Position numbers and translations under genes: made by a program. Below, piece by piece: positions 37,605 to 53,972 of a stretch of DNA of 64,000 nt; the stretch's first letter is position 1, and each line of letters begins with the position of its first letter. The notes under the pieces are model-generated. The model was given only the letters and a program-made list of their open reading frames with translations, was not told the DNA's origin and did no database searches. Source of the stretch: Streptomyces sp. R44 (GTDB lineage: Bacteria; Actinomycetota; Actinomycetes; Streptomycetales; Streptomycetaceae); NCBI RefSeq assembly GCF_041053105.1, contig NZ_CP163444.1:5456001-5520000 (forward strand). The letters are read 5' to 3'.

Positions 37605-38489
37605 ATGACACGCGGATTCAGTGGCACGACACGAGCGGCCCGTGCGGTGGCGCGGCCCGCGCGCTGCGAGGGGATCGCGTGTCGCGGTGGAGAGGAGACG
37701 GCCGGACGGTCCCCGGGGGTCGCCGGGGACGGGAAGCGGCTCTGTGCGGGCTGTGTCGTCCGGCTGACCGGGGGGCTCGCGCGGCTGCCCCGGCTCTACG
37801 AGGAGTGCGGGCTGCTCCTCGGGGGATCCGACCGGCCTCGGGAGCGGACGTCCGGTGGCGGTGCGGCGCCCGGACTTCCGTTCAACACCGCGGCCGCCGA
37901 GGCCCGCTCCGTCATCGTCGGCGTCCTGCGCTCCTGGGCCGGTCTCGTCGTGGGGGAGCGGGTCGTCGCGGCGCCCCGGGACACGGTGGCCGGGGTCGTC
38001 GGGTTCCTCATCCGGCACGCCGGCTGGCTGGCCGCCCACGAGGCCGCGGGCGAGCTGTCCGAGGAGGTGGCGCGGGCGGTGCGCCGGGCGCGGTACGTCG
38101 TCGAGCCGTCCCCGGGACGGGGCATGCGGGTCGGGACGTGCGTCGTGGCGGGGTGCGGGGGCGCGTTGACGGCGGTGGCCCGTGCCGACCGGGCGGACGC
38201 GCCGGTCGAGATCGGCTGCGGGGCGGACTCCTCGCACCGATGGACGGCGCAGGAGTGGATGGCGCTGAGCCGCGACGTACAGGAGCCCGAGCGGGCCGCC
38301 GCTCCGGCGGCGGCGGTGCGCTGGCTGGGGGCCCGGGACATCTCCCTGCTCTGGGGGATCCCCTCCGGCAGCGTGTACCGGCGCGCCAGCGAGCAGCAGT
38401 GGCGGCGGCGTAGCGGCAAGGGCCGGACCTTCTATCACGAGGAGGACGTGCTGCGGTCCCTCGGAGCGAGGGGTGCCGGTCGCCGCTGA
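37605..38489 (+). CDS. OvmZ-like putative DNA-binding protein
   Basis: 294 residues from ATG 37605 after GGGGG. It has paired cysteines near the N-terminus (RCEGIACRGG, RLCAGCVVRL), the LYEECGLLLGG and FNTAAAEARS motifs, and a second Cys pair (GTCVVAGCGG, IGCGAD). The C-terminal winged-helix-like end (ARDISLLWGIPSGSVYRRAS, FYHEEDVLRSL) resembles a helix-turn-helix that reads mobile or regulatory DNA. I recognise the pattern as OvmZ-type proteins of Streptomyces, which are frequent in accessory regions. Their role is undefined. Zinc binding is inferred. Confidence 0.75.
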   Translation: MTRGFSGTTRAARAVARPARCEGIACRGGEETAGRSPGVAGDGKRLCAGCVVRLTGGLARLPRLYEECGLLLGGSDRPRERTSGGGAAPGLPFNTAAAEARSVIVGVLRSWAGLVVGERVVAAPRDTVAGVVGFLIRHAGWLAAHEAAGELSEEVARAVRRARYVVEPSPGRGMRVGTCVVAGCGGALTAVARADRADAPVEIGCGADSSHRWTAQEWMALSRDVQEPERAAAPAAAVRWLGARDISLLWGIPSGSVYRRASEQQWRRRSGKGRTFYHEEDVLRSLGARGAGRR

Positions 38490-38842: not shown

Positions 38843-40114
38843 ATGCGGATTCTCATCGCAGTCGCGCCGTTGCCCGCCCATCTGTATCCCGGCGTCCCCC
38901 TGGCGTGGGCGCTGCAGAGCGCCGGACACGAGGTGCGGGTGGCGAGCAACGACAGTCTCGTCGAGCACATCACCGCGGCCGGTCTCACGGCGGTCGGGAT
39001 CGGCGAGCGCACCTCCCCGCCCGTGCCCGCCACGGACGAGGAGCTGGAGCGCTTCAGCGACGCGCTGGCGTTCGAGGCCGGCTCCGACTTCGACCGGCTG
39101 TTCCGGGCGACCCGCTTCTATCTGATGGCCGCCTACACGCGGTACCACCCGGACGCGGAGGGCCGGCAGGAGCTCGCCGACGGTCTGGTCGAGGCCGCCC
39201 GGAACTGGCGGCCGGACCTGGTGATCTGGGACCCGGCCTGTCCGGTGGGGGCGGTCGCCGCCCGCGAGGCCGGCGCCGCGTCGGCCCGGCTGCTCTGGGG
39301 CCCCGACTACTTCGGCTGGATCCGCAAGCGTCTGGTCGAGCGGGCGGCCGACCCGGCGTCCGGAGTGACCGCGGCGACGGATCCGCTGGCCGCGGCCCTG
39401 GCGCCGGTGTTCGGCCGCTTCGGCCACGAGTTCTCCGAGGAGCTGCTGCTCGGCGACTTCACCGTCGACCCGCTCCCCTCACAACTGCCCAGGCCCGAAG
39501 GACTCCGCAGGGTCCCGATGCGCTGGGTGCCGTACACCGGGGCCGTGCCGGTTCCCCCGTGGCTGTCCCAGCCACCGGCACGGCCCCGGGTCTGTCTCTC
39601 GCTCGGCGTCACCGGGCGTACGGTCCACGACGGCCGGGACGAGCGGGTCGCCGCCGTCCTGGAGGCGGTGGCCGGGATGGACGTCGAGGTGGTCGCCACC
39701 GTCAACGCCGACCAACTGGGCCCGGATCCGGTCGTCCCCGACAACGTGCGGATCGTGGACTTCCTGCCGCTGACCCAGGTGATGCCGACCTGCGCGGCGA
39801 TCGTCCACCACGGCGGCTTCGGCACGTTCTTCGCCGCCGCCGCCCACCGGGTGCCCCAGCTGATCATCGGCGAGGACCTGGGGAGCGCGCTGAACAGCAC
39901 CCGCTACCTGGAGGCCAGGGGAGCGGGCGTGACCCTCCACGCCGAGGGCCTGACCGCCGCCGAGGTGGGCAAGCAGCTCGAACGGCTGCTGACGGAGCCG
40001 TCGTTCCGCGACGGGGCGGCCGCCGTGCACGCGGACCTCACGGCCGCGCCCTCGCCCGGCGAGCTGGTGCCCGTACTGGAACGGCTGACCGCCCAGTACC
40101 GCGGACGGGGCTGA
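38843..40114 (+). CDS. GT-B glycosyltransferase for a deoxysugar
   Basis: 423 residues, GT1/EryCIII-like. The N-terminal acceptor domain opens with MRILIAVAPLPAHLYPGVPLAW-type residues (split). The C-terminal donor domain has HHGGFGTFFAAAAHRVPQLI with the nucleotide-binding HHGGxGT motif. It probably transfers an NDP-deoxyhexose to the aglycone. EryCIII/DesVII-type enzymes need a P450-like activator protein, and none is present here. It is the first gene of the cluster, 4 bp ahead of the sugar epimerase gene, with a low-GC leader upstream. Confidence 0.88.
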   Translation: MRILIAVAPLPAHLYPGVPLAWALQSAGHEVRVASNDSLVEHITAAGLTAVGIGERTSPPVPATDEELERFSDALAFEAGSDFDRLFRATRFYLMAAYTRYHPDAEGRQELADGLVEAARNWRPDLVIWDPACPVGAVAAREAGAASARLLWGPDYFGWIRKRLVERAADPASGVTAATDPLAAALAPVFGRFGHEFSEELLLGDFTVDPLPSQLPRPEGLRRVPMRWVPYTGAVPVPPWLSQPPARPRVCLSLGVTGRTVHDGRDERVAAVLEAVAGMDVEVVATVNADQLGPDPVVPDNVRIVDFLPLTQVMPTCAAIVHHGGFGTFFAAAAHRVPQLIIGEDLGSALNSTRYLEARGAGVTLHAEGLTAAEVGKQLERLLTEPSFRDGAAAVHADLTAAPSPGELVPVLERLTAQYRGRG

Positions 40115-40118
40115 CGGG

Positions 40119-40721
40119 ATGCGCGTGGAGGAGACACGGGTTCCCGGCGCGTACGTGTTCACCCCGGACCCGATCCCCGATCCGCGGGGCGTGTTCTTCG
40201 AGGCCTTCCGGAGCGACCTCGTCGAGGAGACGGTCGGCCGCCCGTTCCGGCCGGCGCAGATCAACTACTCGACGTCCGTACGCAACACCCTCCGCGGCAT
40301 CCACGGCGTGGCGGTGCCGCCCGGGCAGGCCAAGTACGTGACGTGCGTGCGGGGAGCGGCCCGCGACATCGTCGTCGACCTGCGGGTCGGCTCGCCCACC
40401 TTCGGAGAGCACCAGGAGACCGTGCTCGACGCGGAGTCGGGGCGGTCCGTGTACGTGCCCGAGGGCGTCGGTCACGGCTTCCTGACGCTCACCGACGACA
40501 CCTGCATCTGCTACGTGGTCTCCACGCTCTACGTACCGGGCACACAGATCGACATCGACCCCCTCGACCCCGACCTGGCGCTCCCCTGGGGCTTCGACGA
40601 GCCGCCGCTGATGTCGGAGAAGGACGCGAAGGCGCCCGGCGTGCGGGAGGCGCGCGCCGCGGGGCTGCTCGCGGACTGGCACGACCTGCGCCGAGCCGAT
40701 CTTGACCTCAAGTCGACTTGA
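40119..40721 (+). CDS. dTDP-4-dehydro-6-deoxyhexose 3,5-epimerase (RmlC family)
   Basis: 200 residues, cupin-fold RmlC type. The catalytic His lies in LRGIHGVAVPPGQAKYV, and the substrate-site EGVGHGFLTLTDD and CYVVSTLYVPG with the conserved Tyr are present. It epimerises C5 and possibly C3 of a 4-keto-6-deoxy sugar, giving the L-series. It is coupled to the glycosyltransferase gene. Its last codons overlap the SoxR-box promoter of the following exporter gene. Confidence 0.93.
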   Translation: MRVEETRVPGAYVFTPDPIPDPRGVFFEAFRSDLVEETVGRPFRPAQINYSTSVRNTLRGIHGVAVPPGQAKYVTCVRGAARDIVVDLRVGSPTFGEHQETVLDAESGRSVYVPEGVGHGFLTLTDDTCICYVVSTLYVPGTQIDIDPLDPDLALPWGFDEPPLMSEKDAKAPGVREARAAGLLADWHDLRRADLDLKST

Positions 40722-40732
40722 GGTTTTAGGGT
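40702..40732 (+). promoter_or_regulatory. SoxR-type promoter with perfect 20-bp SoxR box
   Basis: ACCTCAAGTC and its exact reverse complement GACTTGAGGT form a perfect palindrome at 40705-40724, matching the SoxR box known from E. coli soxS (CCTCAAGTTAACTTGAGG) and S. coelicolor SoxR targets. It lies between TTGACC (-35, 40702-40707) and TAGGGT (-10, 40727-40732) with a 19-bp spacer, the over-long spacing that MerR-family activators require. It precedes the MFS exporter gene. Confidence 0.85.
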
Positions 40733-40772
40733 CTCGGCGACCAGCGCCGAACGACAACGCAAGGAGAATCCT

Positions 40773-42413
40773 TTGAGTACCGACGCCGGTACGTCGGCAG
40801 TGCCGCAGGCGACCCGCAGAGAATGGCTGGGCCTCGCGGTCCTCGGGCTTCCCACCCTGCTCATCGCCATGGACCTGACGGTTCTGCACCTGGCACTCCC
40901 CACGCTCACCGCGGACCTCAGGCCGGGCAACACCGAGCTGTTATGGATCGTCGACGTCTACGGCTTCCTCATCGCCGGCTTCCTCCTCCCCATGGGCGCG
41001 ATCGGGGACCGGATCGGCCGTAGGAAGCTGCTGCTGATCGGCGGCGCCGCGTTCGGAGTGGCCTCGGTGCTCTCCGCGTTCGCGACGAGCCCGACGATGC
41101 TCATCGCCGCCCGGGCCCTGCTCGGCATCGCGGGCGCCACCCTGATGCCCTCGACGCTCTCCCTGATCCGGGTCATGTTCCAGGACCCCAAGCAGCAGGG
41201 CGCCGCCATCGGCGCGTGGACCGGCTTCTTCGGACTCGGCACGGTCATCGGCCCGCTGGTCGGCGGAACGTTCCTGGAGCTCTTCTGGTGGGGCGCGGTC
41301 TTCCTGATCGGCGTTCCCGTGATGGCGCTGCTGCTCGTCCTCGGCCCGATCCTGCTCCCCGAGTACCGGGACCGCTCGGTCGCCCGCCCCGACCTGCTCT
41401 CCGCGGTCATGTCCGTCCTCGCCATGCTCGCCCTGATCTACGGTCTCAAGCGGATCGCCCAGGACGGGCTGCAGCTGGAGTCGGGGCTCTCCCTCGTCCT
41501 CGGCGTGCTGCTCGCGGCGCTGTTCCTGTACCGGCAGACCCGCCTCGACCAGCCCCTCGTGGACCTCAAGCTGTTCCGCAACAGCCTGTTCGGCACGGCC
41601 CTCGGCATGCTGGTGCTCGCCACCCTGCTCTCCGCCGGCCTGCAGTTCCTCGTCATGCAGTACCTCCAGCTCGTCAAGGGCCTCAGCCCGATCCAGGCCG
41701 GGCTGTGGTCCCTGCCGATCACCCTCGGCGTCATGATCGGCGCCATGGGCGGGCCGGGGCTCGCCGGAAAGATGAAGCTCAGCACCCTGCTCTCCGGCGG
41801 CCTGGTGGTCTCCGCGCTCGGCATGGTCCTGCTGACCTTCGTCAGCGGCCCCTCCGACCTGTACCTCGCGGTGGGCGGCACGGCCGTCATCGGCATGGGC
41901 CTCGGCCCGATGATCTCCCTCGGCACCGGACTCATCGTCGGGGCGGCCCCGCCCGAGCGGGCCGGCGCCGCGTCCGCGATGGCCTCGACCGGCACCGAAC
42001 TCGGCAGCGCCCTCGGCGTCGCCCTGATCGGCAGCATCGGCTTCGCGGTGTACCGCTCCCGGCTGTCCGACCGGCTCCCCGAGGGCCTGTCGGCGGGCGA
42101 CGCCCACGCGGCGAAGGACACCCTCGGCGCCGCCGTGGACACCGCGCGCGGGCTCCCCGCCGAACTCGCCGACCGCCTCCTCGCGGTGGCCCGCGACGCC
42201 TTCGTGCACGGCCTGCGGACGACGGCGATCGTCGGCGCGGTGCTCGCCGTGCTCCTCGCCGTGGTCGCCGCGACCCTGCTGCGCGGCGCCACGATGCCCG
42301 GCCCGCCGCCGGCTGCGGAAGCGGACGGCGACACGGACGGCGACACGGACGGCGGGACCGGCAGCGAGGCGGCCGGCGACGGCGCCAAGTCCCTGGAGCG
42401 GGTGGACAACTAG
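40773..42413 (+). CDS. MFS exporter, DHA2 (QacA/SmvA-like) family
   Basis: 546 residues with about 14 hydrophobic helices. Family motifs are the helix-1 acid in LIAMDLTVLHLALPTL, the loop 2-3 motif GDRIGRRKLL, and helix-5 motif C-like GTVIGPLVGG. A TTG start at 40773 is supported by AAGGAG at 40761. The C-terminal tail is Asp/Gly/Thr-rich with a short repeat. It exports lipophilic or quinone-like drugs by proton antiport. The SoxR-type promoter implies induction by redox-active compounds, so it is the likely self-resistance pump of the cluster. Confidence 0.93.
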   Translation: MSTDAGTSAVPQATRREWLGLAVLGLPTLLIAMDLTVLHLALPTLTADLRPGNTELLWIVDVYGFLIAGFLLPMGAIGDRIGRRKLLLIGGAAFGVASVLSAFATSPTMLIAARALLGIAGATLMPSTLSLIRVMFQDPKQQGAAIGAWTGFFGLGTVIGPLVGGTFLELFWWGAVFLIGVPVMALLLVLGPILLPEYRDRSVARPDLLSAVMSVLAMLALIYGLKRIAQDGLQLESGLSLVLGVLLAALFLYRQTRLDQPLVDLKLFRNSLFGTALGMLVLATLLSAGLQFLVMQYLQLVKGLSPIQAGLWSLPITLGVMIGAMGGPGLAGKMKLSTLLSGGLVVSALGMVLLTFVSGPSDLYLAVGGTAVIGMGLGPMISLGTGLIVGAAPPERAGAASAMASTGTELGSALGVALIGSIGFAVYRSRLSDRLPEGLSAGDAHAAKDTLGAAVDTARGLPAELADRLLAVARDAFVHGLRTTAIVGAVLAVLLAVVAATLLRGATMPGPPPAAEADGDTDGDTDGGTGSEAAGDGAKSLERVDN

Positions 42414-42460
42414 CCGGCCGACCACGCGGAAGCCGACGACTCGAAAGTGGACGACTGACC

Positions 42461-44224
42461 ATGCCGGACGCGCACGTACCGGCCGGACCGGCCCGGACCC
42501 CCGTCGGGGTCTGGGCCGGTTCGGTCCGTCACGACGACCAGACCGACCCCTACGTCATCTCCTTCGCACCGGACGGAACGATCGCGCTCCGCACGTCCGG
42601 CACCGTCGGCACCGGGACCTGGGCCGAGGGGCAGGCGGGACGCTTCTCGTACGAACTCACCGAGACCTTCACCCCGGCGAGCGGCCGGGCGGGCCGGATC
42701 GAGGCGCACGTCGAGGCCCACCTCGACGGCGACGCCCACCACGGCACCGGCACCGCCCGGATCAGCACCCCCGACGGCGTACCGCTGCACACCACCACCG
42801 CCGAGTTCGCCGGGGAGCGCCTCGCCCGCGAACCGGCCGGCTGGCACGGGCTCGTGACCCTGGGCGCGCCGGTCCGCGGACGGGTCCTCTTCCCCGGGGA
42901 CGAGGGCTTCGAGGAGGCGGTGGGCTCCGGCTGGCTGCTCACCGTCGAGCACCGGCCCGCCGCGGTCGTCCTCGCCGCCGACGCCGAGGACGTGGCCGCC
43001 GCCGTCCGGTTCGCCGCCGCGGCCGGCCGGCCGGTGGCCGTGGAGTCGACCGGCCACGGCAGGTCGGTGCCCTCCGACGGCGCGGTCTTCGTCTCGACCC
43101 GGGAGCTGCGCGGGCTCTCGGTCGATCCGGAGGCCGCGACCGCCCGGATCGGGGCGGGGCTGACCTGGGGCGAGGTGCTCGACGCCACCGCCGGGCACGG
43201 CCTCGCGCCGCTGAGCGGCTCCTCGGCGGACGTCGGGGCGATCGGCTTCCTGACCGGCGGCGGGCTCCCGCTGGCCTGCCGCACGTACGGCTTCGCCGCG
43301 GACCGGGTCCGCTCCCTGGAGCTGGTCACCGCCGACGGCCGGATCCGCACCGTCTCGCCGGTCCAGGACCCCGACCTGTTCTGGGCGGTACGGGGCGGCC
43401 GGAGCAACTTCGGCGTGGTGACCTCGGCCGAGATCGACCTGGTCCCGCTGCGGGACGTCTTCGCCGGCGAGCTGTACTACCCGGGCGAGGACCCCGCGCA
43501 CGCGGCGCACGTCGTGCGGTCGTACCTGGCCTGGGCCAAGGACCAGCCGGACGAGATGTCGTCCTCGCTGACCCTCGTACGGTTCCTGGACCTGCCGAAG
43601 GTGCCCGAGGAGTACCGCGGCCGGTCCTTCGTCCTCGTGCACGTCCTGTGCACCGCCGGGGAGCGGCTCGGCGAGCGGCTCGTGGCGCCGCTGCGCGCGC
43701 TCGCCCCCGAGCGAGACAACTGCGCCACCATGCCCTACGCGCGGGTCACCGAGCTCCACCACGACCCGAAGCAGCCGGTACGCGTCCACTTCCGCAGCGC
43801 GCTCCTCGACGAGCTCGACGACTCGGCGGCCGAGACGCTGGTCTCGTTCATCGACCCGGCGCTGCCCGGCGGGCCGTACCCCAACATCGAGCTGCGGCAC
43901 CTGGGCGGGGCGGTCGGCCGACCGCCCCGGCGGCCGCACGCGGTGGGCGGCAGGACCGCGGCCTTCCATCTGTGGACGCGGATACCGGCCCCCGCCGAGA
44001 CGGCCGACGAGGCCCGCCGGCTCTCGGACGAGGTGCTGGCACGGCTGAGGCCGTGGGACACCGGCGAGCTGCTGCCGGGGTTCCTCTTCGACCACGACTC
44101 CGACCCCGAGCGGGTCCGGCGGGCCTACGCGGAGCCCGACCACCGGCGGCTGACCGAGCTGAAGGCCCGGTACGACCCGCAGAACCTGTTCCGCATCAAC
44201 CACAACATCCCGCCCGTCCCGTGA
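42461..44224 (+). CDS. FAD-linked oxidase (berberine-bridge-like) with extra N-terminal domain
   Basis: 587 residues, about 120 longer than the usual ~460. Residues about 1-125 form an unrecognised beta-rich domain (GVWAGSVRHDDQTDPYVISF, TGTWAEGQAGRFSYEL, HGTGTARISTPDGVPLHTTT). The FAD_binding_4 domain follows: STGHGRSVPSDGAVF (His for 8-alpha-histidyl FAD) and GAIGFLTGGGLPLACRTYG. The position of the second, cysteinyl attachment is Ser/Ala (LSGSSADVGA). The BBE C-terminal motif is NLFRINHNI. It oxidises alcohols or phenols with O2 during tailoring; the substrate is unknown. Confidence 0.9.
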   Translation: MPDAHVPAGPARTPVGVWAGSVRHDDQTDPYVISFAPDGTIALRTSGTVGTGTWAEGQAGRFSYELTETFTPASGRAGRIEAHVEAHLDGDAHHGTGTARISTPDGVPLHTTTAEFAGERLAREPAGWHGLVTLGAPVRGRVLFPGDEGFEEAVGSGWLLTVEHRPAAVVLAADAEDVAAAVRFAAAAGRPVAVESTGHGRSVPSDGAVFVSTRELRGLSVDPEAATARIGAGLTWGEVLDATAGHGLAPLSGSSADVGAIGFLTGGGLPLACRTYGFAADRVRSLELVTADGRIRTVSPVQDPDLFWAVRGGRSNFGVVTSAEIDLVPLRDVFAGELYYPGEDPAHAAHVVRSYLAWAKDQPDEMSSSLTLVRFLDLPKVPEEYRGRSFVLVHVLCTAGERLGERLVAPLRALAPERDNCATMPYARVTELHHDPKQPVRVHFRSALLDELDDSAAETLVSFIDPALPGGPYPNIELRHLGGAVGRPPRRPHAVGGRTAAFHLWTRIPAPAETADEARRLSDEVLARLRPWDTGELLPGFLFDHDSDPERVRRAYAEPDHRRLTELKARYDPQNLFRINHNIPPVP

Positions 44225-44251
44225 CGGCGCGTGAGAGGGGGATCAACCGGA

Positions 44252-45367
44252 ATGACAGTCTCCACTGAGATACGGACGACGGTGGCCGAGGCCGCCGCAC
44301 TGGCCGGCACCCAGGCCGCGAAGGCCGACGCCGAGCGCAGGGTGAGCGAGGAGGTCGTACGGGCGGTGGTCGACGCCGGCTTCGCCCGGTGGCTCGTGCC
44401 GGCCCGCTGGGGCGGCTCCGACCGCGGCTACACCGAACTGACCGAGGCCGTGGCGGAGATCGGCGCGGAGTGCTCCTCCGCCGCCTGGCTCGCCTGCCTC
44501 GCCGCCCACGCCGCCCGGTACGTCGCCTGTCTGCCCGAGCAGGGCCAGGCCGACATCTGGGGCGACGGCCCCGACACCCTGGTCGCGGCCGTCATCAAGC
44601 CGCAGGGCACGGCGTCCGCCGTCGACGGCGGCTTCCGGCTCTCCGGCTCCTGGACCTACGTCAGCGGTGTCGAGCACTCCGACTGGGCGCTGCTCACCGG
44701 CCCCACGCCCGGCCCGAAGTCCGGCGGCCAGCCCATGCGGCTCTTCGCCGTCCCGCGCCGGGACTACACCTTCGAGGACACCTGGTCCTCCCTCGGCATG
44801 CGGGGCACCGGCAGCCACACCCTCGTCCTGGACGACGTGTTCGTGCCCGAGCACCGGGTCTGCCTGCGCGAGGACGCCTTCCGGGGCGCCACCGTCGGCC
44901 TGCCCGGACGGGCCCCGCTGCCCAACCCGGCCGTCAGCGGCCTGACGTTCGTCGCTCCCGTGCTCGGCGCCGCGCGCGGCGCGCTCGCCGTCGCCGCGCA
45001 GCTCGTGGCGGTCGCCCCGACCGGCCCCCGGGCCGCCGCGGGCCAGGCCTACCAGGTGGAGTTCGCGCGGGCCGCCGGCGAGATCGACGCGGCCCAGCTG
45101 CTCCTGGAGCGGGCCACCGCCGTCGTGGACGGCGGCACCCTGACGCCGGAGCTCGCCCGCCGCAACCGCCGCGACTTCGCGCTGGCGCTCCAGCTCCTCG
45201 CGGACGCCACCGACCGGCTGCTGCGGATCGGCGGCACCCGTGCCCAGGAGGACGGGCACCCGCTCCAGCGGTACTGGCGGGACGTCCGCTCGGTCACGAG
45301 CCACGCGGTCATGCAGTTCGAGCCCGCGGCCCTCGACTACACCCAGGGCCTCGCCGGTCCGGCCTGA
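44252..45367 (+). CDS. Acyl-CoA-dehydrogenase-like flavin monooxygenase (group D)
   Basis: 371 residues with the acyl-CoA dehydrogenase fold: N-terminal helical domain (RRVSEEVVRAVVDAGFARWL), the middle beta-domain around GGFRLSGSWTYVSGVEHSDW, and WSSLGMRGTGSHTLVLDDVFVP (split across the strand). Ser/Thr-rich FMN contacts replace the CoA dehydrogenase Glu base. It matches HpaB/ActVA-ORF5/DszC-type oxygenases that use reduced flavin from a partner. The partner flavin reductase is encoded about 1.7 kb downstream in the same operon. Probably hydroxylates an aromatic or quinone intermediate. Confidence 0.85.
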   Translation: MTVSTEIRTTVAEAAALAGTQAAKADAERRVSEEVVRAVVDAGFARWLVPARWGGSDRGYTELTEAVAEIGAECSSAAWLACLAAHAARYVACLPEQGQADIWGDGPDTLVAAVIKPQGTASAVDGGFRLSGSWTYVSGVEHSDWALLTGPTPGPKSGGQPMRLFAVPRRDYTFEDTWSSLGMRGTGSHTLVLDDVFVPEHRVCLREDAFRGATVGLPGRAPLPNPAVSGLTFVAPVLGAARGALAVAAQLVAVAPTGPRAAAGQAYQVEFARAAGEIDAAQLLLERATAVVDGGTLTPELARRNRRDFALALQLLADATDRLLRIGGTRAQEDGHPLQRYWRDVRSVTSHAVMQFEPAALDYTQGLAGPA

Positions 45368-45378
45368 AGGAGACGACG

Positions 45379-46209
45379 ATGATCCTGGTATCCGGAGCCA
45401 CCGGCCACGTCGGCCGGCCGCTCGTGGACGAACTGCTCGCCGCCGGCCGCAAGGTGCGGGCGCTCAGCCGCGACCCGCACGGGGCCGGCCTGCCCGCCGG
45501 CGTCGAGGTGGCCGCCACCGCCGACCTGCCCCTGGAGGGCATCACCTCGGCGTTCTTCGTCATGGCCGCCTTCCCCGGGGGTACGGCGGAGCCGATCGCC
45601 CGGCTGAAGGAGGCGGGCGTGCGCCGTATCGTCGCCCTCTCCTCGTACTCGGTCCTCGACGACGACCCGAAGAACATGATCGCCGTGAAGCACCGGGACC
45701 TGGAGCGCCAGATCCGGGAGACCGGCGCCGAGTGGACGTTCCTGCGGCCCGCCGGAGGACTCGCGGCCACCGCCCTGGAGTGGGCCGGACAGATCCGTAC
45801 CGAGGGCGTCGCCCGCTTCCCCTTCGGGGAGGCGTGGACCGCCCCCGTCCACGAGCGGGACATCGCCGCCGTGGCCGCCCGTGCCCTGCTCACCGACGAA
45901 CTCGTCGGCGAGGCCCCGCTGTTCAGCGGGCCCGAGTCGATCACGTACGCCGACCGCGCGCGGATCATCGGCGAAGCCACCGGCCAGCCGGTCCGGTTCG
46001 CCGAGCTCTCGCACGACGAGGCGCGGCAGGCATGGCGCGCGGCCGGCATCCCGCCGCACGCCGTCGAGGCGCGGCTGCGGATGTTCGCCACGATGGTCGG
46101 CCGCCCGCACGAGATCTCACCGGTCGACCCCTACCTGGGAAGGCCCGGGCTGAGCTTCGCCCAGTGGGCCGCCGACCACGCCGACGCGTTCCGGAAGGGG
46201 ACGAAATGA
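45379..46209 (+). CDS. NmrA-like NAD(P)-binding protein 1
   Basis: 276 residues, atypical SDR. The Rossmann motif is GATGHVGRPL at the N-terminus, followed by RALSRDP, IVALSSYSV and TFLRPAGG. No Tyr-x3-Lys catalytic pair is evident. The C-terminus (LSFAQWAADHADAF) is shared in pattern with the two related genes downstream. Such NmrA/HSCARG-like proteins in polyketide clusters act as quinone or ketone reductases. Clear AAGGAG upstream; the next gene overlaps by 4 bp. Confidence 0.88.
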   Translation: MILVSGATGHVGRPLVDELLAAGRKVRALSRDPHGAGLPAGVEVAATADLPLEGITSAFFVMAAFPGGTAEPIARLKEAGVRRIVALSSYSVLDDDPKNMIAVKHRDLERQIRETGAEWTFLRPAGGLAATALEWAGQIRTEGVARFPFGEAWTAPVHERDIAAVAARALLTDELVGEAPLFSGPESITYADRARIIGEATGQPVRFAELSHDEARQAWRAAGIPPHAVEARLRMFATMVGRPHEISPVDPYLGRPGLSFAQWAADHADAFRKGTK

Positions 46210-47030
46210 TTCTGGTAGCCGGTGCCACGGGCAACGTGGGCGGCGAGCTGCTGCGGCAGCTGCGGGCCGAGGGAGCCCCCGTCCGGGCCCTCACCCGCGA
46301 CCCCGCCCGGGCCGGACTGCCGGCCGATGTGGAGGTCGCCGAGGGGGACTTCGCCACACCGGAGTCCCTGGCCAAGGCCTTCTCCGGGGTCGAGTCCCTG
46401 TTCCTGATGATGTCCGGGAACGAGACTGCGGTGGTCGAGGAGGCGGCCCGCGCCGGTGTGCGGCGGATCGTGCTGCTCTCCAGCGTCGCCGTGGAGACCC
46501 GCCCGGACTCCCTGATCGGCCGCGTCCACGGCGAGGCCGAGCGGGCCGTCGAGAAGTCCGGACTCGCCTGGACCTTCCTGCGGCCCGGCCAGTTCGCCTC
46601 CAACACCCGCGGCTGGGCCGCCCAGATCGCGCAGGGGGACGTCGTCCGCACGCCCTTCGGACAGGTGGGCCTGCCCGCCGTCCACCCCGGCGACATCGCG
46701 GCGGTCGCCCGGACCGCGCTCACCCGCGACGGCCACGACGGCGCGGTGTACGCGCTCAGCGGCCCCGCGCCCGTCACGCCCGTCGAGCAGGTCGCGGCGA
46801 TCGGCGCCGCGATCGGCCGGGAGCTGCGCCACGAGGAGTCCACCCCGGAGGAGGCCGCCGCCGACATGGCCGCCTTCATGCCGGCCGAGATCGTCGCCGC
46901 CACCCTGGAGTTCCTCGGCAGCCCCACCGCGACGGAGACCCGGGTGCTGCCCACCGTCGAGCAGGTGACGGGCCGTCCGGCGAGGACCTTCGCCGAGTGG
47001 GCGCGCGACAACGCCGACGGGTTCCGCTGA
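46206..47030 (+). CDS. NmrA-like NAD(P)-binding protein 2
   Basis: 274 residues, ATGA overlap with the previous gene. GATGNVGGELL opens the Rossmann fold, followed by RALTRDPARAGLPA, RRIVLLSSVAV and TFLRPGQFASN. The C-terminal signature VEQVTGRPARTFAEWA is nearly repeated in the third paralogue (VEEITGRPARTFDAWA). The tandem genes probably arose by duplication. Predicted NAD(P)H-dependent reductase of a tailoring intermediate; the substrate is unknown. Confidence 0.88.
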   Translation: MILVAGATGNVGGELLRQLRAEGAPVRALTRDPARAGLPADVEVAEGDFATPESLAKAFSGVESLFLMMSGNETAVVEEAARAGVRRIVLLSSVAVETRPDSLIGRVHGEAERAVEKSGLAWTFLRPGQFASNTRGWAAQIAQGDVVRTPFGQVGLPAVHPGDIAAVARTALTRDGHDGAVYALSGPAPVTPVEQVAAIGAAIGRELRHEESTPEEAAADMAAFMPAEIVAATLEFLGSPTATETRVLPTVEQVTGRPARTFAEWARDNADGFR

Positions 47031-47059
47031 CACCCGGGAGAGAGCATGGGGGCGCGACA

Positions 47060-47548
47060 GTGTTGACCCAGCGCGGATTCCGCGACGTACTGGGACGTTT
47101 CGGCACCGGAGTGGTGCTGGTGACCGCGGAGTCGGAGCGCGGGCCGGTCGGCATGGCGGTGAACTCCTTCACCTCCGTGTCCCTCGACCCGCCCCTGATC
47201 GCGTTCTGCGCCGCGCTGACCTCGACCACCTGGCCGGCCGTCCGCGCGACGGGCGGCTTCGCCGTCACGATCCTCAGCGACGGCCAGGAAGAGATCTGCC
47301 GGACCTTCTCGGCCCGCGACGCGGACCGGTTCGCCGGCGGGAACTGGCTGCGGACCGCCGCCGGACACCCGGTGGCGGCGGACGGACTCGGCTGGCTGGA
47401 CTGCCGCATCAGGTCGGTCCAGCGCGCGGGCGATCACGAACTGGTGATCGCCGAAGCGGCGGACTGGTCCCTCGGGGCCGAGACGAGACCGCTGATCTTT
47501 CACTCCGGTCGCTACGCCGGCCTGACGGAGCGATCACATGCACGATGA
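47060..47548 (+). CDS. NAD(P)H:flavin reductase (HpaC/ActVB-like)
   Basis: 162 residues from GTG 47060. Flavin reductase domain: FGTGVVLVTAESERGPVGMA, NSFTSVSLDPPLIAFCAALT, FAVTILSDGQEEICRTFS, then LDCRIRSV and the terminal HSGRYAGL. It supplies reduced FMN or FAD to the acyl-CoA-dehydrogenase-like oxygenase two genes upstream, as ActVB does for ActVA-ORF5. It ends 13 bp before the third NmrA-like gene. Three paralogous NmrA genes flank it. Confidence 0.92.
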   Translation: MLTQRGFRDVLGRFGTGVVLVTAESERGPVGMAVNSFTSVSLDPPLIAFCAALTSTTWPAVRATGGFAVTILSDGQEEICRTFSARDADRFAGGNWLRTAAGHPVAADGLGWLDCRIRSVQRAGDHELVIAEAADWSLGAETRPLIFHSGRYAGLTERSHAR

Positions 47549-47561
47549 TGGGGAGAAATCT

Positions 47562-48401
47562 GTGTTCCTGGTGACCGGAGCGACCGGCAACGTCGGCCGT
47601 CACGTCGTCGAAGGGCTGCTCGCCGAGGGGCAGGCCGTACGGGCCCTCACCCGCGACCCCGCGGCGGCCCGCCTGCCCGCCGGGGCCGAGGTGGCGGTCG
47701 GCGACCTCACCCGGCCGGAGACGGTCGAGCCCGCCCTGAAGGACGTCTCCGCGCTCTTCCTCTTCCCCTCGCCGGGCACGGCGGGGCCGGTCGTCCGGGC
47801 CGCGAAGCGGCAGGGCGTCCGCCGGATCGTCCTGCTGTCCTCCTCGGCCGTCGCGTACGAGACCGAGGGCGCCGACAACGCGATCGTGGCGTTCCACAAG
47901 GAGATCGAGCGCGAGGTCGAGGCCTCCGGCCTGGAGTGGACCTTCGTCCGGCCCGGCGCCTTCGCCGTCAACACCCTCCAGTGGGCTCCGCAGATCCGCG
48001 CCGGGGACGTCGTGCGCGGGCCGCACGCCGGGGCCGAGATGTCCATGATCCACGAGCGGGACATCGCGGACGTCGCCGTCCGGGCGCTGCTCACGGACGG
48101 CCACGCGGGCGCGAAGTACGTGCTGACCGGCCCGGAATCCCTCAACCAGGCCGAGCAGGCCCGGCGCATCGGCCAGGCCATCGGACGGCCCGTCCGGTAC
48201 GAGGAGCTGGCGCCCGCCGCCGCGCGCGAGGAGATGCTCCGCAACGGCGTCCCGGCCGCCTTCGCGGACATGCTCCTCGCCTTCCAGGCCGGGCTCGTCG
48301 GCGTCCCCGCGGAGGTCACGACGGCGGTCGAGGAGATCACCGGCCGCCCCGCCCGCACCTTCGACGCATGGGCCGCCGAGCGCGCGGCCGACTTCCGCTA
48401 G
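47562..48401 (+). CDS. NmrA-like NAD(P)-binding protein 3
   Basis: 279 residues from GTG 47562, chosen because GGGGAG lies 7-8 nt upstream and the product then aligns with its two paralogues (FLVTGATGNVGRHVVEGL). An ATG at 47538 would add eight residues and overlap the flavin reductase gene by 11 bp. RRIVLLSSSAV, WTFVRPGAFAVN and the C-terminal TGRPARTFDAWA are shared with paralogue 2. Likely reductase in the same tailoring pathway. Confidence 0.88.
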   Translation: MFLVTGATGNVGRHVVEGLLAEGQAVRALTRDPAAARLPAGAEVAVGDLTRPETVEPALKDVSALFLFPSPGTAGPVVRAAKRQGVRRIVLLSSSAVAYETEGADNAIVAFHKEIEREVEASGLEWTFVRPGAFAVNTLQWAPQIRAGDVVRGPHAGAEMSMIHERDIADVAVRALLTDGHAGAKYVLTGPESLNQAEQARRIGQAIGRPVRYEELAPAAAREEMLRNGVPAAFADMLLAFQAGLVGVPAEVTTAVEEITGRPARTFDAWAAERAADFR

Positions 48402-48410
48402 GGCCCGTCC

Positions 48411-48482
48411 GGCGGCCCGGGGCCCGGCCCCGGGCCCCGTCCGGCAAGAGGCCCGGCCCCTCCCGTCGGGCCCGGCCCGTAC
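48411..48482 (+). other. GC-rich hairpin spacer inside the tailoring operon
   Basis: The 114-bp gap before the FAD hydroxylase gene is almost pure G/C in its first 70 bp with nested GGGGCCC/GGGCCCC repeats. It could be a weak terminator, a processing site, or simply drift. Confidence 0.35.
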
Positions 48483-48515: not shown

Positions 48516-50045
48516 ATGGCAGATGTGATCATCGCCGGCGGCGGCCCGACCGGGCTGATGCTCGCCTGCGAGCTGCGGCTCGCCGGAGTGGACGTGCTGG
48601 TCCTGGAGAAGCTCGCGCGCCGGACCGGTGAGTCACGGGCCGGCGGCCTCCACGCCCGCAGCGTCGAACTCCTCGACCAGCGCGGGATCGTGGACCGGTT
48701 CCTCGCGGAGGGCAGCGCGCAGCCGCTCGCCCACTTCGCCTTCATGCACCTGGACATCGACGACTTCCCGACGAGGCACCCGTACGCCGTCGCCATCCAC
48801 CAGTCCCGGATCGAGCAGCTCCTGGAGGACCGCGCCCTGGAGCTCGGCGTGCAACTGCGCCGGCCCGCCGAGGTGATCGGCCTGGAGCAGGACGAGACCG
48901 GCATCGAGGTGGAGGTCGCCGTCGACGGCGGCACCGAACGGCTGCGCGCCGACTACCTGGTGGGCTGCGACGGCGGCCGCAGCAAGGTCCGCAAGCTGGC
49001 CGGCGTCGGCTTCCCCGGCACCCCGGCCACGCTGACCGCGCTCCTCGGCGACGTCGAGCTCACCGACCCGCCCTCCGAGATCGTCTTCGGCCAGGAGGGG
49101 CGCCGGGACAACGGCTTCTACATGAACTTCCAGTCCGAGTACCCCGGCCTGCGCCGGATCATCACGGTGGAGTTCGGCAAGGTCACGGACCGGGACGCCC
49201 CGGTGACCGTCGAGACGCTCAGCGAGGCGTGTGTCGAGATCGTCGGTACGGACTGGGGCATGCACAGCCCGCGCCGGCTGGACCGCTTCAGCGACGCCTG
49301 CCGGCTCGTGGACTCGTTCCGTCAGGGCCGGGTCCTGCTCGCCGGGGACGCGGCGCACGTCCACTTCCCCTCCAGCGGCCAGGGGCTGAACCTGGGACTC
49401 CAGGACGCCGTCAACCTGGGCTGGAAGCTCGCCGCGGTCGTGAAGGGCGAGGCCCCCGACGAGCTGCTCGACACGTACCACTCCGAGCGGCACCTGCACA
49501 CCACGCACATGCTCAACAACATCCGCGCCCAGACGGCCCTCTGGCCCGCGGGCTCCGAGGCCGACGCGCTTCGCCGGGTCTTCGAGGACCTCATCGAGTT
49601 CGAGCACGGCAACCGGTACCTGGGCGGCGTCATCAGCCAGCTCGACACCCACTACCCGGTGGGCGACGGGCACCCGGCCCTCGGCCGCCGGATGACCGAC
49701 CTCGACATCAAGTCGCCGAACGGCCGGGTGAGCGTCTACGAGCTATTGCACGGCGCTCGGCCCCTGCTGCTCGACTTCAGCGGCCGTCCCGACGTGCGCG
49801 CCGCCGCCGACGGCTGGACGGACCGGGTGGACCTGGTCGAGGCGGAGCCCCAGGACGACCGCTGGGCCTTCCCGGTCATCGGCGACGTCCCGGCCCCCGC
49901 GGCCGTCCTCATCCGCCCCGACGGCCACGTCGCCTGGGCCACGCCCACCGCGGCCGCCGCGGGGAGCGAGGCCGAGGGCCTCACGGACGCCCTCACCCGG
50001 TGGTTCGGACCCGCCCGGGCCCGCCGGGAACAGGACGCGGCCTGA
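48516..50045 (+). CDS. FAD-dependent aromatic hydroxylase (PHBH/PgaE-like)
   Basis: 509 residues. N-terminal FAD dinucleotide motif IIAGGGPTGLMLACEL. The second FAD/NAD(P)H motif VGCDGGRSKVRKLAG contains DG. The GD motif is VLLAGDAAHVHFPSSGQGLN. A thioredoxin-like C-terminal domain (about 400-509) is present, typical of the polyketide aromatic hydroxylase subgroup (PgaE, RdmE, MtmOIV-like). It hydroxylates an aromatic ring or performs Baeyer-Villiger-type oxidation. Its presence is consistent with an aromatic polyketide-like substrate. RBS GAGAGGTG. Confidence 0.93.
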   Translation: MADVIIAGGGPTGLMLACELRLAGVDVLVLEKLARRTGESRAGGLHARSVELLDQRGIVDRFLAEGSAQPLAHFAFMHLDIDDFPTRHPYAVAIHQSRIEQLLEDRALELGVQLRRPAEVIGLEQDETGIEVEVAVDGGTERLRADYLVGCDGGRSKVRKLAGVGFPGTPATLTALLGDVELTDPPSEIVFGQEGRRDNGFYMNFQSEYPGLRRIITVEFGKVTDRDAPVTVETLSEACVEIVGTDWGMHSPRRLDRFSDACRLVDSFRQGRVLLAGDAAHVHFPSSGQGLNLGLQDAVNLGWKLAAVVKGEAPDELLDTYHSERHLHTTHMLNNIRAQTALWPAGSEADALRRVFEDLIEFEHGNRYLGGVISQLDTHYPVGDGHPALGRRMTDLDIKSPNGRVSVYELLHGARPLLLDFSGRPDVRAAADGWTDRVDLVEAEPQDDRWAFPVIGDVPAPAAVLIRPDGHVAWATPTAAAAGSEAEGLTDALTRWFGPARARREQDAA

Positions 50046-50091: not shown

Positions 50092-51174
50092 GTGTCGCTG
50101 GACGAACCGACGACCGACACCGCCGACACCTCCACCGGCTTCGCCGCACTCCGGCGGCTCGCCGACCTGGTGACCCCCATGGCGGTGAGAGTGGCCGCCC
50201 ACCTGCGGCTCGTCGACCACCTGCGCGACGGTGCGCACGACCTGGCATCGCTGGCGAAGGCGACCGGTTCCCACCAGGACACGCTGAGACGACTGATCCG
50301 GCACCTGGTCGCCGTCGGCGTCCTGACGGAGCCCGCCCCGGACCACTACGAGGCCACCGCCGTGGGCGAGTTGCTCGCTCACGGCCACCCGGCCACCCAG
50401 GTCGGGTGGCTGGATCCGAGCCACATGGTCGGCCGGGCGGACCTCGCCCTCGTCCACCTCTTCGAGGCCGTGCGCGACGGCGAAGCCGTCTACCGGCAGC
50501 GGTACGGCAAGGAGTTCTGGGAGGAGGTCTCCGACGACCCCACCCTCGGCGCCACCTTCTACGACATGATGGCCAACGGCCAGCGGACCGTCTTCCGGCA
50601 GGTGGCGGAGCGGCACGACTGGACCGGCGTACGGCACGTCCTCGACGTGGGCGGCGCCGACGGCGACCTCCTCGCCGCCGTCCTCGCGCGGGAGCCCGGA
50701 ATCAGCGCCGGCCTGCTGGAACTGCCCGGCCCGGCGGCCCGGGCGCGGACGAAGTTCGAGGGCACCGAACTGGCCGACCGGGTCACCGTGTTCGACGGCA
50801 GCTTCTTCGACCCGCTCCCGGTGACCGCCGACACCATCACGCTGTCCTTCGTCCTCCACAACTGGTCGGACGACGACGCCGTACGTATCCTGCGCCGCTG
50901 CGCGGAAGCGCTGGAGCCGGGCGGATCCGTGCTGCTCGTCGAGTGCGCCGACCAGTCGCCCAGCGCGCCGGATCCGGCCTTCACGAGCGCCGATCTCCGG
51001 ATGCTGGTCTACTTCGGCGGCCGCGAACGCACCCAGGAGGAATGGCGGGAAATCGCCGTCGCCGCGGGCCTGGACATCGCCTCGCTGTCCCCCGCCCTCG
51101 CCTATGGCGCACGCGTCATCACCTTGGTGAGGACGCCCTCCTGTTTTCCGGGAACACCCGGACAGCGGGAATGA
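50092..51174 (+). CDS. SAM-dependent O-methyltransferase (acetylserotonin OMT family)
   Basis: 360 residues. An N-terminal winged-helix dimerisation domain (FAALRRLADLVTPMAVRVA, LAKATGSHQDTLRRLIRHLV) is followed by the Rossmann methyltransferase core with the SAM loop HVLDVGGADGDLLAAVLA, then FFDPLPVTADTITLSFVLHNW carrying the catalytic His in LHNWSDDDA. It matches DnrK/TcmN-type enzymes that methylate phenolic hydroxyls of polyketides. Starts at GTG with GGGAGA upstream. Confidence 0.93.
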   Translation: MSLDEPTTDTADTSTGFAALRRLADLVTPMAVRVAAHLRLVDHLRDGAHDLASLAKATGSHQDTLRRLIRHLVAVGVLTEPAPDHYEATAVGELLAHGHPATQVGWLDPSHMVGRADLALVHLFEAVRDGEAVYRQRYGKEFWEEVSDDPTLGATFYDMMANGQRTVFRQVAERHDWTGVRHVLDVGGADGDLLAAVLAREPGISAGLLELPGPAARARTKFEGTELADRVTVFDGSFFDPLPVTADTITLSFVLHNWSDDDAVRILRRCAEALEPGGSVLLVECADQSPSAPDPAFTSADLRMLVYFGGRERTQEEWREIAVAAGLDIASLSPALAYGARVITLVRTPSCFPGTPGQRE

Positions 51175-51278: not shown

Positions 51279-52670
51279 GTGACAGCACCTCACGGCCGAG
51301 CCGCCCTCGCGATCGAGGAGCTCACCGATGAGCAGTACGGACAGGTCGTCCGGCCCGGCGACGCCGAGTACGACGCGGCCCGCACCGTGTACGTGGGCGA
51401 TGTCGACCGCAGGCCCGCCGTGATCCTGCGCCCGCGGAACGCCGAACAGGTGGCGCGCGTCGTGACGCTCGCCCGGGAGACCGGGACCGAGCTGGCCGTC
51501 CGCGGCGGCGGACACAGCGGCGCCGGGCACGGCGTCTGCGAGGGCGGCATCGTCCTCGACCTGCACCACCTGAAGGGCCTGGAGATCGACGTCGAGGCCC
51601 GCACGGCCTGGGCCGAGGCCGGGATCTCCGCCGGCGAGTACACCGCGGCGGCCGCGGAGCACGGGCTCGCCACGGGCTTCGGCGACAGCACCATGGTCGG
51701 CGTCGCCGGCATCACCCTGGGCGGCGGCATCGGCTTCCTGTCCCGCAAGTACGGCATGACCATCGACGACCTGCTGGCCGCGGAGATCGTCACGGCCGAC
51801 GGCGAACTGCTCTCGGTGGACGAGCGGCACCACCCGGACCTGTTCTGGGCGATCCGCGGCGGCGGCGGCAACTTCGGCGTCGTGACCCGCCTCAAGCTCC
51901 GCCTCCACGAGGTCGACGGCGTCTACGGCGGCATCATGGTGCTCCCCGTGACCCCCGAGATCCTGGAAGACTTCATCGCCGAGGCGGAGGCCGCCCCCGA
52001 GGAGCTCACCACGATCGTGAACGTGTGGACGGCGCCGCCGTTCCCGTTCATCCCCGCCGAGCAGCACGGCAAGCCGATCATCCTGGCGGTGATGTGCTAC
52101 GCCGGACCCGCCGAGGACGGCGAGAAGGTCATCGGCCGGTTCCGGGCGATCGCCCCGCCGCTCGCCGACATGGTGCGGGCCATTCCCTACCCGGCGATGT
52201 TCGGCCCCGCGGACCCCTCGGCACACCCGATCTCCGCGGTGCGCAACATCTTCATCGACCGCGTCGACCGGGCGACCGCCGAGACCATCCTGGACCGCAC
52301 GGCCGCCTCCGACGCGATCACCGCCGGTGTGCAGCTGCGGGTCCTCGGCGGTGCCATCGCGCGCGTGGCCGACGACGCCACGGCCTACCCGCACCGACAG
52401 AGCCGGATCATGGCCCATCTGACCGCCGTCTACGCGGACCTGGCGGACGCCGACCGGTACGAGGCCTGGGTCGAGGAGTTCATGACCGCGATCCGGCAGT
52501 CCGACACCGGCTCCTACGTCAATTTCGTGGTGCGCGCGGATGAGGAAGACGTCCGGGAGGCGCTCTACCCGGGCGCCACCGGAGAACGCCTCGCCCGGAT
52601 CAAGGCGGAATACGACCCGGCCAATCTTTTCCGCTCCAATCACAACATCGTGCCCGCGACATCGGGGTGA
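51279..52670 (+). CDS. FAD-linked oxidase (berberine-bridge-like)
   Basis: 463 residues, standard BBE length. The His of the covalent FAD site is in VRGGGHSGAGHG. The expected second, Cys site is replaced (FGDSTMVGVAG instead of xxCxxVGxxG), followed by LGGGIGFLSRKYGM. The C-terminal BBE motif is NLFRSNHNI. It is unrelated in detail to the first FAD oxidase and lacks its N-terminal extension. Starts at GTG after AAGGAG. A strong terminator follows at 52698-52731. Confidence 0.93.
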   Translation: MTAPHGRAALAIEELTDEQYGQVVRPGDAEYDAARTVYVGDVDRRPAVILRPRNAEQVARVVTLARETGTELAVRGGGHSGAGHGVCEGGIVLDLHHLKGLEIDVEARTAWAEAGISAGEYTAAAAEHGLATGFGDSTMVGVAGITLGGGIGFLSRKYGMTIDDLLAAEIVTADGELLSVDERHHPDLFWAIRGGGGNFGVVTRLKLRLHEVDGVYGGIMVLPVTPEILEDFIAEAEAAPEELTTIVNVWTAPPFPFIPAEQHGKPIILAVMCYAGPAEDGEKVIGRFRAIAPPLADMVRAIPYPAMFGPADPSAHPISAVRNIFIDRVDRATAETILDRTAASDAITAGVQLRVLGGAIARVADDATAYPHRQSRIMAHLTAVYADLADADRYEAWVEEFMTAIRQSDTGSYVNFVVRADEEDVREALYPGATGERLARIKAEYDPANLFRSNHNIVPATSG

Positions 52671-52772: not shown

Positions 52773-53972
52773 ATGACAGCCGACAGAGCGGAGACCCGGA
52801 CGCGGGCGGCGGCGCCCCGGGAGGGGGCGCCACCCGCCACCGGCCGTGCCCGGCTCGACTCGCTGACCGGACTGCGCTTCTTCGCGGCGCTCGCGGTCTT
52901 CGTCACCCACTCCTCCTTCCTCCTCATCGGCTCGGCGAGCCTGATCTTCCCCACCTTCGCCGACCCGGAGACCGGCGCCGCCTTCCAGGCCTGGGCCGGG
53001 CAGGCCGGCAGCCTCGGAGTGGCGTTCTTCTTCGTCCTCAGCGGCTTCGTCCTCACCTGGTCCGCCCGCCCCGGCGACCGCACGGGCAGCTTCTACCGCC
53101 GCCGCTTCGTCAAGATCCTGCCGCTGTACTACGTGGCCGGCGCCGCGGCGACCGTCCTCCTGTGGGACCTCGGCGTCCGCTGGCAGGACCTCCTCGCCTA
53201 CGCGACCTTCCTCCAGGTGTGGGTGCCGAACCCCGAGGTGAACTTCAGCGTCCTCACGCCCGGCTGGTCCCTCGCCGTCGAGGCCGTGTTCTACCTCGTC
53301 TTCCCGCTCGTCATCGGCAGGTTCCGCCGCCTGGGCCGGGGCGCCGCCTGGACGGGCCTCGCCCTCAGCGTGGCCGTCGCCTTCCTCGTACCGGTCCTCG
53401 CCTACGTCCTGCCCGCCGGGGCCGGCGAGCTCGTGGGCGCCCCGAACCAGGCCGGATTCCAGACGTGGTTCGCGTACGTGCTGCCGCTCGGCCGCCTCTG
53501 CGACTTCTTCGCCGGCATGTTCGCCGCGCTCCTGGTGACCTCCGGCCACTTCCCCCGGATGAGCCTGCCGTGGGTCCTCGTCTCCTTCGTGCCCTGCTAC
53601 GTCTGGGCGGCCGAGAGCCCGTGGCTGTTCGGCCAGCGGGCACCCCTGCTGGTCTCCTGCGTGCTGCTCATCGTGGCCGCCGCGCAGCGGGACATCGCGG
53701 GGCGCCCCTCGTTCCTGTCGTCGAGCACGATGGTCCTACTCGGCAACGTGTCGTTCGCGTTCTACCTCGTCCACCACCTGGTGCTCTACGCCCTCAACAC
53801 CAAGGTGCTGCACGGCCCCTTCGGCTCGGTGCCGATGGTCGCCGCCTACATGGCGTCGGCCCTCCTCGTCTCCGTCGGCGTGGCATGGCTGCTCCACCGG
53901 TACGTGGAGATGCCCCTCGTCCGACGCTTCAGCACGCCCCACAGGCACACCCGCACGGAGGTCGCGGCATGA
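52773..53972 (+). CDS. Membrane O-acyltransferase (acyltransferase 3 family)
   Basis: 399 residues from ATG 52773 after GGAGGAAAG. About 10 TM helices of the OafA/acyltransferase-3 fold. Characteristic residues are RLDSLTGLRFFAALAVFVTH with the conserved Arg and His, the RRRFVKILPLYYVAG region, and a late HH pair in YLVHHLVLY. It probably acetylates or acylates a sugar or aglycone hydroxyl on the membrane. Its stop overlaps the 4,6-dehydratase start (ATGA), linking it to sugar decoration. Confidence 0.9.
   Translation: MTADRAETRTRAAAPREGAPPATGRARLDSLTGLRFFAALAVFVTHSSFLLIGSASLIFPTFADPETGAAFQAWAGQAGSLGVAFFFVLSGFVLTWSARPGDRTGSFYRRRFVKILPLYYVAGAAATVLLWDLGVRWQDLLAYATFLQVWVPNPEVNFSVLTPGWSLAVEAVFYLVFPLVIGRFRRLGRGAAWTGLALSVAVAFLVPVLAYVLPAGAGELVGAPNQAGFQTWFAYVLPLGRLCDFFAGMFAALLVTSGHFPRMSLPWVLVSFVPCYVWAAESPWLFGQRAPLLVSCVLLIVAAAQRDIAGRPSFLSSSTMVLLGNVSFAFYLVHHLVLYALNTKVLHGPFGSVPMVAAYMASALLVSVGVAWLLHRYVEMPLVRRFSTPHRHTRTEVAA

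Follow-up and report, generated by a model that had tools for sequence, protein, structure and literature searches.

The window, that is, the whole stretch of 64,000 nucleotides of Streptomyces sp. R44 analysed here, holds a cluster of glycosylation, oxidative tailoring and export genes. Its features are listed below, together with their counterparts in the relatives A3M-1-3 and Streptomyces sp. HNM0575 (G236).

37869..38489, plus strand: uncharacterised protein, 76% to A3M-1-3 and 73% to G236, no Pfam match
38843..40114, plus strand: EryCIII-like glycosyltransferase, from domain and profile matches
40119..40721, plus strand: dTDP-sugar 3,5-epimerase, its stop codon within the box
40702..40707, plus strand: -35-like hexamer TTGACC, identical in A3M-1-3 and G236
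40705..40724, plus strand: perfect 20-bp palindrome, very probably a SoxR box, present with changes in two syntenic orthologues
40727..40732, plus strand: -10-like hexamer TAGGGT, which is TAGGGT in A3M-1-3 and TACGGT in G236
40773..42413, plus strand: DHA2-like MFS exporter with a TTG start, Pfam MFS_1
42461..44224, plus strand: berberine-bridge-type FAD oxidase 1, with an N-terminal extension
44282..45367, plus strand: acyl-CoA-dehydrogenase-like flavin monooxygenase
45379..46209, plus strand: NmrA-like reductase 1
46236..47030, plus strand: NmrA-like reductase 2
47111..47548, plus strand: flavin reductase
47562..48401, plus strand: NmrA-like reductase 3
48525..50045, plus strand: aromatic-ring FAD monooxygenase
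50092..51174, plus strand: O-methyltransferase
51279..52670, plus strand: berberine-bridge-type FAD oxidase 2
52773..53972, plus strand: acyltransferase 3
53969..54952, plus strand: dTDP-glucose 4,6-dehydratase (TIGR01181, 419 bits, over the cut-off)
54966..55985, plus strand: NDP-sugar ketoreductase-like protein of the Epimerase family, a putative role
55982..57289, plus strand: NDP-hexose 3-dehydratase-like protein (DegT/RfbH), 95% to A3M-1-3
57332..57988, minus strand: JadR1-like response regulator, 58% to the regulator of the S. venezuelae jad cluster
58361..61006, plus strand: SARP/AfsR-type regulator (BTAD) at the cluster edge, unmatched in those parts of the relatives' genomes that were compared

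The exporter promoter and its gene cluster

The sixteen frames from 38843 to 57289, the exporter included, are open with a GC3 of 0.90-0.97 (GC3 was the basis for choosing them). With A3M-1-3, the best pieces of these frames share 72-95% identity. The exporter matches NCBIfam drug-efflux models, in every case under the model's cut-off. A gap of 47 bp separates it from the next gene, no terminator-like site lies between the two, and the genes through 57289 run in the same direction. Therefore, the exporter promoter may also drive the tailoring genes downstream. Just ahead of the cluster, a large NACHT-type NTPase is encoded on the minus strand (33677-37006). Against a model of activator-dependent glycosyltransferases, the window glycosyltransferase reaches 431 bits, under the cut-off of 440; none of the cluster proteins tested in the window looked like a P450-like activator protein. 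The extension of oxidase 1 (42461-42850) is 35% like a small stand-alone protein that adjoins the exporter in Streptomyces sp. Je 1-79 (G330, L156:8053-8400), a fusion in one genome and a separate gene in the other. Between 45379 and 48401, three NmrA-like paralogues stand nearly in tandem with the flavin reductase interposed, an order that is the same in both relatives.

As read in the sequence, ACCTCAAGTCGACTTGAGGT at 40705-40724 is a perfect 20-bp palindrome. It lies between the hexamers TTGACC and TAGGGT, whose 19-bp spacer (40708-40726) has the same length in the orthologues. Its arms, CCTCAAG-N4-CTTGAGG, are those of a SoxR operator, and an over-long spacer of 19-20 bp with the operator inside is the layout of a SoxR-activated promoter. 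The epimerase stop TGA (40719-40721) falls within the box, and the exporter start, a TTG at 40773 with AAGGAG ahead of it, is 41 bp past 40732. The preliminary description of this DNA had placed a palindrome in such a spacer, 41 bp before the exporter and overlapping the end of the epimerase gene; every coordinate was re-read and stands.

At up to three mismatches the 20-mer has one copy in the window and none in 100 dinucleotide shuffles of it, so the box is not a product of chance. CCTCAAG-N4-CTTGAGG has two occurrences in the 8.89-Mb genome, and its reversed control has none. At up to two mismatches the box has 13 genomic places versus 18 for the reversed control. Weak boxes are thus meaningless, and promoter-type sites alone were used. 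The full promoter pattern, TTGACCTCAA-N6-TTGAGGTNNTA, is found free of mismatches nowhere else in the genome; at up to three mismatches it has seven sites, versus two for the control; two of the sites have a single mismatch, and four have two or three. In one of these, TTGACC lies ~38 bp ahead of the start of an ABC transporter; the other, with CCTCAAG...CTTGAGG arms, lies ~67 bp ahead of a zinc-type quinone oxidoreductase. A genome scan for other SoxR boxes had been proposed in the preliminary description, and these two next-best sites precede genes of the regulon kind. In passages of PMC4146615, the SoxR targets of S. coelicolor include an ABC transporter, oxidoreductases and a reductase, and a transketolase has a SoxR site in S. 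avermitilis. A3M-1-3 has seven promoter-type sites at up to three mismatches, the cluster exporter included; others precede an ABC transporter (no mismatch), a transketolase and a quinone oxidoreductase (one each) and an FMN reductase (two). A further site in A3M-1-3 (C26:25934-25960, L128:15934-15960; two mismatches) stands ~4 kb upstream of the PKS core, in front of a short quinone-oxidoreductase-like frame of which the N-terminal domain alone was matched.

The preliminary description presumed a genome-encoded SoxR and named absence of the gene as grounds for abandoning its reading. The gene is present, at C1:1919713-1920129, ~3.6 Mb from the window, and scores 237 bits in a profile search of the genome (cut-off 116.9). 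It alone of 24 MerR-like genome matches passes this cut-off, the other 23 scoring at most 49.9 bits. Residues 32-172 align without gaps with the SoxR of PDB 2ZHG, which we take to be the E. coli protein. The cysteines, CIGCGCLSLETC, form the iron-sulphur motif CX2CXCX5C, as defined for SoxR in a passage of PMC4146615. In A3M-1-3, Microtetraspora and Spongiactinospora (G001, G002 and G003), two proteins each pass the SoxR cut-off, compared with one here. Given this single SoxR gene, the regulon-type genes behind the two next-best sites and the conservation of the box in relatives, the palindrome is very probably a SoxR box, and SoxR control of the exporter promoter is, in our estimate, highly probable.

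The promoter and the cluster in relatives

The syntenic exporter orthologues of A3M-1-3 (L022; exporter 83%) and G236 (exporter 81%) carry TTGACCTCAACTCGGCTTGAGGTTCTAGGGT and TTGACCTCAACTGAACTTGAAGTTCTACGGT, respectively, in which one or two arm bases are changed. The 31-bp promoter matches at 28 of 31 positions in A3M-1-3 and at 25 of 31 in G236. The 60 bp on its 5' side match at just 21 and 23 positions, respectively, and the 37 bp from promoter to start at 25 and 14. Since the box of either relative is intergenic, past the epimerase stop, coding overlap of the kind found in the window is not the reason for its conservation; here the promoter is kept in the way expected of a SoxR-activated one.

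Exporters of 85-95% identity occur in Streptomyces sp. NPDC055815 and Qhu_M48. The survey of related exporters covered 95 loci (80 plus 15, our own included, one or two possibly representing the same genome twice). Within 350 bp upstream, the pattern is present with at most one mismatch in five of the 95, again including our own. Three other loci have three, four and five mismatches (one each), and in 87 at least seven specified positions are mismatched; none of 1900 mononucleotide shuffles has five mismatches or fewer. The promoter is also found in G330, which has a related deoxysugar cluster, and in S. capitiformicae (G352), the exporters of both being more distant than the A3M-1-3 and G236 orthologues. 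The box is absent in L023-L028, including Microtetraspora, where the exporter is 76% identical. At the place of the SoxR box, Microtetraspora has another palindrome, GCCAACAATTTTATGTATTGTTGGC (L024:6898-6922), and the regulator has perhaps been swapped. In G352 (L157/L158, C1:5898168-5906168), the related exporter adjoins homologues of genes that flank the window cluster, namely the window GTPase (31829-32917) together with those at 30197 and 29240, and the cluster itself is missing; judged from first residues, this is the same chromosomal spot. A flavin-reductase-like gene is also found there.

Three further exporter loci include L160 and L161, exporters of two genomes from another family, where the pattern has one mismatch and the arms are the symmetric CCTCAAC...GTTGAGG; the remaining locus has five mismatches. 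The L160/L161 promoter, TTGACCTCAAC-N4-GTTGAGGT, is fully symmetric in CAAC/GTTG and perhaps serves a different MerR regulator. These symmetric arms slightly lower our confidence in SoxR and raise that in another MerR protein, to which some exporters of this family may answer. The innermost arm base varies (CAAG or CAAC) before genes of the regulon type as well.

In A3M-1-3 and G236, the cluster is contiguous, spans ~37-38 kb and includes, next to the exporter, a type II PKS of the angucycline type. The SARP has no counterpart in the stretches compared, and G236 also does not have the acyltransferase. The relatives' extra genes encode a cyclase, KS-alpha, KS-beta, ACP, a ketoreductase, an aromatase, two FAD monooxygenases, a SnoaL-like protein, a thymidylyltransferase, a 2,3-dehydratase, a 3-ketoreductase, a phosphopantetheinyl-transferase-like protein and a carboxylase; several of these names are our assumption from position and jad names. 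This core lies between the homologue of the 37869-38489 protein, which directly precedes it, and the glycosyltransferase. In the window, where nothing comparable stands between the two, the 37869-38489 gene marks the place of the missing core. The preliminary description had supposed that the product or an intermediate is redox-active, and the type II PKS beside the exporter in relatives with the same cluster supports this supposition.

A jadomycin-type locus and the missing core

Neither the window nor the following 37 kb encodes a ketosynthase, and the window locus by itself does not hold the KS-alpha, KS-beta, ACP, ketoreductase, aromatase and cyclase set of an angucycline cluster. We rejected a cluster of its own that needs no PKS, as the relatives have a PKS in the same cluster, and a core just downstream of the window, as the 37 kb beyond it hold no ketosynthase. 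A type II PKS at 7.92 Mb was also rejected as the core, its gene content, judged from first residues, being like that of a spore-pigment cluster, presumably the one named whiE; in the 19.5 kb covered there, neither a ketoreductase nor a deoxysugar gene was recognised.

Homologues of the missing genes are located at C1:6736605-6755955, ~1.2 Mb from the window. Apart from the spore-pigment-like one, this second locus is the only type II PKS locus of the genome, with KS-alpha/KS-beta pairs called by position, and it contains the genome's sole 2,3-dehydratase gene. Compared with the relatives' genes, its KS-alpha (C1:6739754-6741025) is 84%, KS-beta 75%, ACP 80%, ketoreductase 83%, aromatase 82%, carboxylase 82% and 2,3-dehydratase 76% identical. 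The FAD monooxygenases are at ~60%, and the thymidylyltransferase and SnoaL at just 33-35%. The second locus is therefore a different angucycline cluster and not simply a relocated piece. Its KS-alpha has a 96% match in S. venezuelae; other homologue searches gave generic names.

S. venezuelae ATCC 10712 (G018) carries the jadomycin cluster. The second locus has the same gene order, from the TetR gene before an AfsA-like gene to RfbA, with 74-98% identity over the shared genes. Unlike the jad cluster, it does not have the two genes after the AfsA-like gene, a 225-aa protein between the two FAD monooxygenases, or the tail of four genes that follows the thymidylyltransferase and encodes a glycosyltransferase, a 4,6-dehydratase, an epimerase and a reductase. 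The 225-aa protein is presumably JadG, the ring-opening oxygenase, and we take the four tail genes to be jadS, T, U and V. In the second locus, the frames of the FAD monooxygenases that flank jadG overlap by four bases, and nothing of the jad tail is present past RfbA. A genome search, run with no positive control, gave no jadG match. The locus thus does not have the jadG and glycosylation tail of a jadomycin cluster. Neither this locus nor its S. venezuelae counterpart contains a further SoxR-type promoter at up to five mismatches.

The window has the kinds of glycosyltransferase, 4,6-dehydratase, epimerase and reductase that the second locus is missing, and has no early sugar genes. One gene set is complete across the two loci combined and incomplete in each alone, and together they hold the minimal PKS, ketoreductase, cyclases and oxygenases of an angucycline cluster. 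Compared with the jad enzymes, the window 4,6-dehydratase is 76%, the epimerase 45% and the glycosyltransferase 29% identical, and the ketoreductase has no match. Since the last three are not close to the jad enzymes, the sugar need not be that of jadomycin. This complementary gene content suggests that the two loci probably form one split angucycline pathway, and an angucycline-type product made through the second locus is moderately likely. In the preliminary description the cluster had no visible core gene. This is true of the window, but the pathway is probably not coreless, as a likely core lies ~1.2 Mb away.

Mechanism, alternatives and known systems

SoxR is activated by quinones, and in Streptomyces it answers to endogenous ones; MerR-type activators untwist the promoter spacer. 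The box, its spacer, soxR, the conservation, the contiguous cluster of two relatives and the complementary gene content are read directly in the sequence; that SoxR binds and induces, that the exporter carries the product, that the two loci cooperate and what the chemistry is, we infer. The genome's single SoxR would sit on the 40705-40724 box. A redox-active metabolite, most likely an angucycline-type quinone glycoside, would oxidise its [2Fe-2S] cluster, and SoxR would then untwist the 19-bp spacer, switching on the DHA2 exporter and possibly the downstream tailoring genes. The aglycone and the first sugar steps would come from the jadomycin-type locus (C1:6.737-6.756 Mb), and the window cluster would carry out the later sugar steps, attach the sugar, perform the oxidative tailoring and export the product. 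Overall, we consider it likely that the SoxR operator in its 19-bp promoter switches on the exporter, with an angucycline-type quinone glycoside from a two-locus pathway as the signal. Slightly better than even, in our estimate, is the chance that two angucycline clusters, now complementary, form one hybrid pathway over ~1.2 Mb in which the quinone signals its own synthesis through SoxR to the exporter, a wiring conserved in the cluster family.

Alternatively, the SoxR site and its target may be real while the window cluster is a remnant that has lost its core. The exporter would then expel redox-active drugs in general, with the jad-type locus working or decaying alone. S. capitiformicae fits this account: its related exporter (50%) has a perfect SoxR-type promoter, and just weak angucycline-gene matches occur within 18-19 kb either side of it. 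In addition, both loci retain a response regulator and an MFS gene of their own and could thus act, or decay, separately. However, the sixteen cluster frames are open, GC3-rich and well conserved in A3M-1-3, and the window has the very kinds of gene that the jad-type locus is missing. We regard the remnant account as unlikely.

Other explanations concern the regulator. Another MerR-family activator may use the box and sense the drug directly, given the 24 MerR-like matches in the genome and the CCTCAAC...GTTGAGG sites that occur elsewhere in it and before the exporters of the two other-family genomes. The arms here are instead CCTCAAG...CTTGAGG, as before the quinone oxidoreductase. In addition, none of seven loci (the window and six related ones) has a SoxR-like match, and eight MerR-type queries gave no match in 23 loci that surround such sites (E<=1e-4, loci mostly of 3-6 kb, no positive control). 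These points make a different MerR activator quite improbable. Cluster exporters are often under TetR repressors, and the different palindrome of the Microtetraspora homologue would suit a repressor, such as a TetR-family protein, that uses the palindrome while the 19-bp spacer is incidental. Yet spacer length and -35 hexamer are kept along with the box in two syntenic orthologues, and no TetR domain occurs among the 20 window proteins examined, which leaves a repressor very improbable.

Passages of PMC4146615 give the S. coelicolor SoxR regulon as SCO7008, SCO1909, SCO1178, SCO4266, SCO2478 and SCO0320ext, and describe its induction by an endogenous quinone antibiotic; for one S. coelicolor target, SoxR binding at about 5 nM is given. 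Like that regulon, the sites predicted here comprise a transporter preceded by a SoxR box together with redox enzymes, a likeness by gene kind. The S. coelicolor study reportedly found the SoxR targets to be separate from the act cluster; here, in contrast, the predicted target is an exporter inside a biosynthetic cluster. In P. aeruginosa, the SoxR-target pump is not known to lie inside the phenazine cluster. Its transporter targets are listed as PA4205-PA4208 and PA3718 in a passage of PMC4146615. There too, the organism makes a redox-active metabolite and SoxR turns on transporters, although the host is Gram-negative. The granaticin cluster contains a soxR-like gene, gra-orf20, with negative action, as stated in PMC8733708. 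This is likewise SoxR-like control of a Streptomyces quinone antibiotic cluster, but in our case the cluster has the operator alone. In the auricin cluster aur1, deoxysugar and tailoring genes are distant from the angucycline-type core on one linear plasmid, according to a passage of PMC6784081. The separation of such genes from an angucycline-type core is shared with our case, but in aur1 they are scattered in the flanks of the core, whereas here two loci stand ~1.2 Mb apart.

In the titles, abstract openings and cited passages covered, with most subscription journals outside this scope, we found no account of this arrangement. An exporter that belongs to a Streptomyces biosynthetic cluster and answers to SoxR, combined with what is probably a split pathway, would be a new form among the known SoxR systems. 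A seemingly coreless cluster becomes a defined hypothesis, with a named second locus and a product class. Since the SoxR operator appears to belong to this cluster family, in front of the exporter gene, such boxes could be used to predict which uncharacterised clusters have redox-active products.
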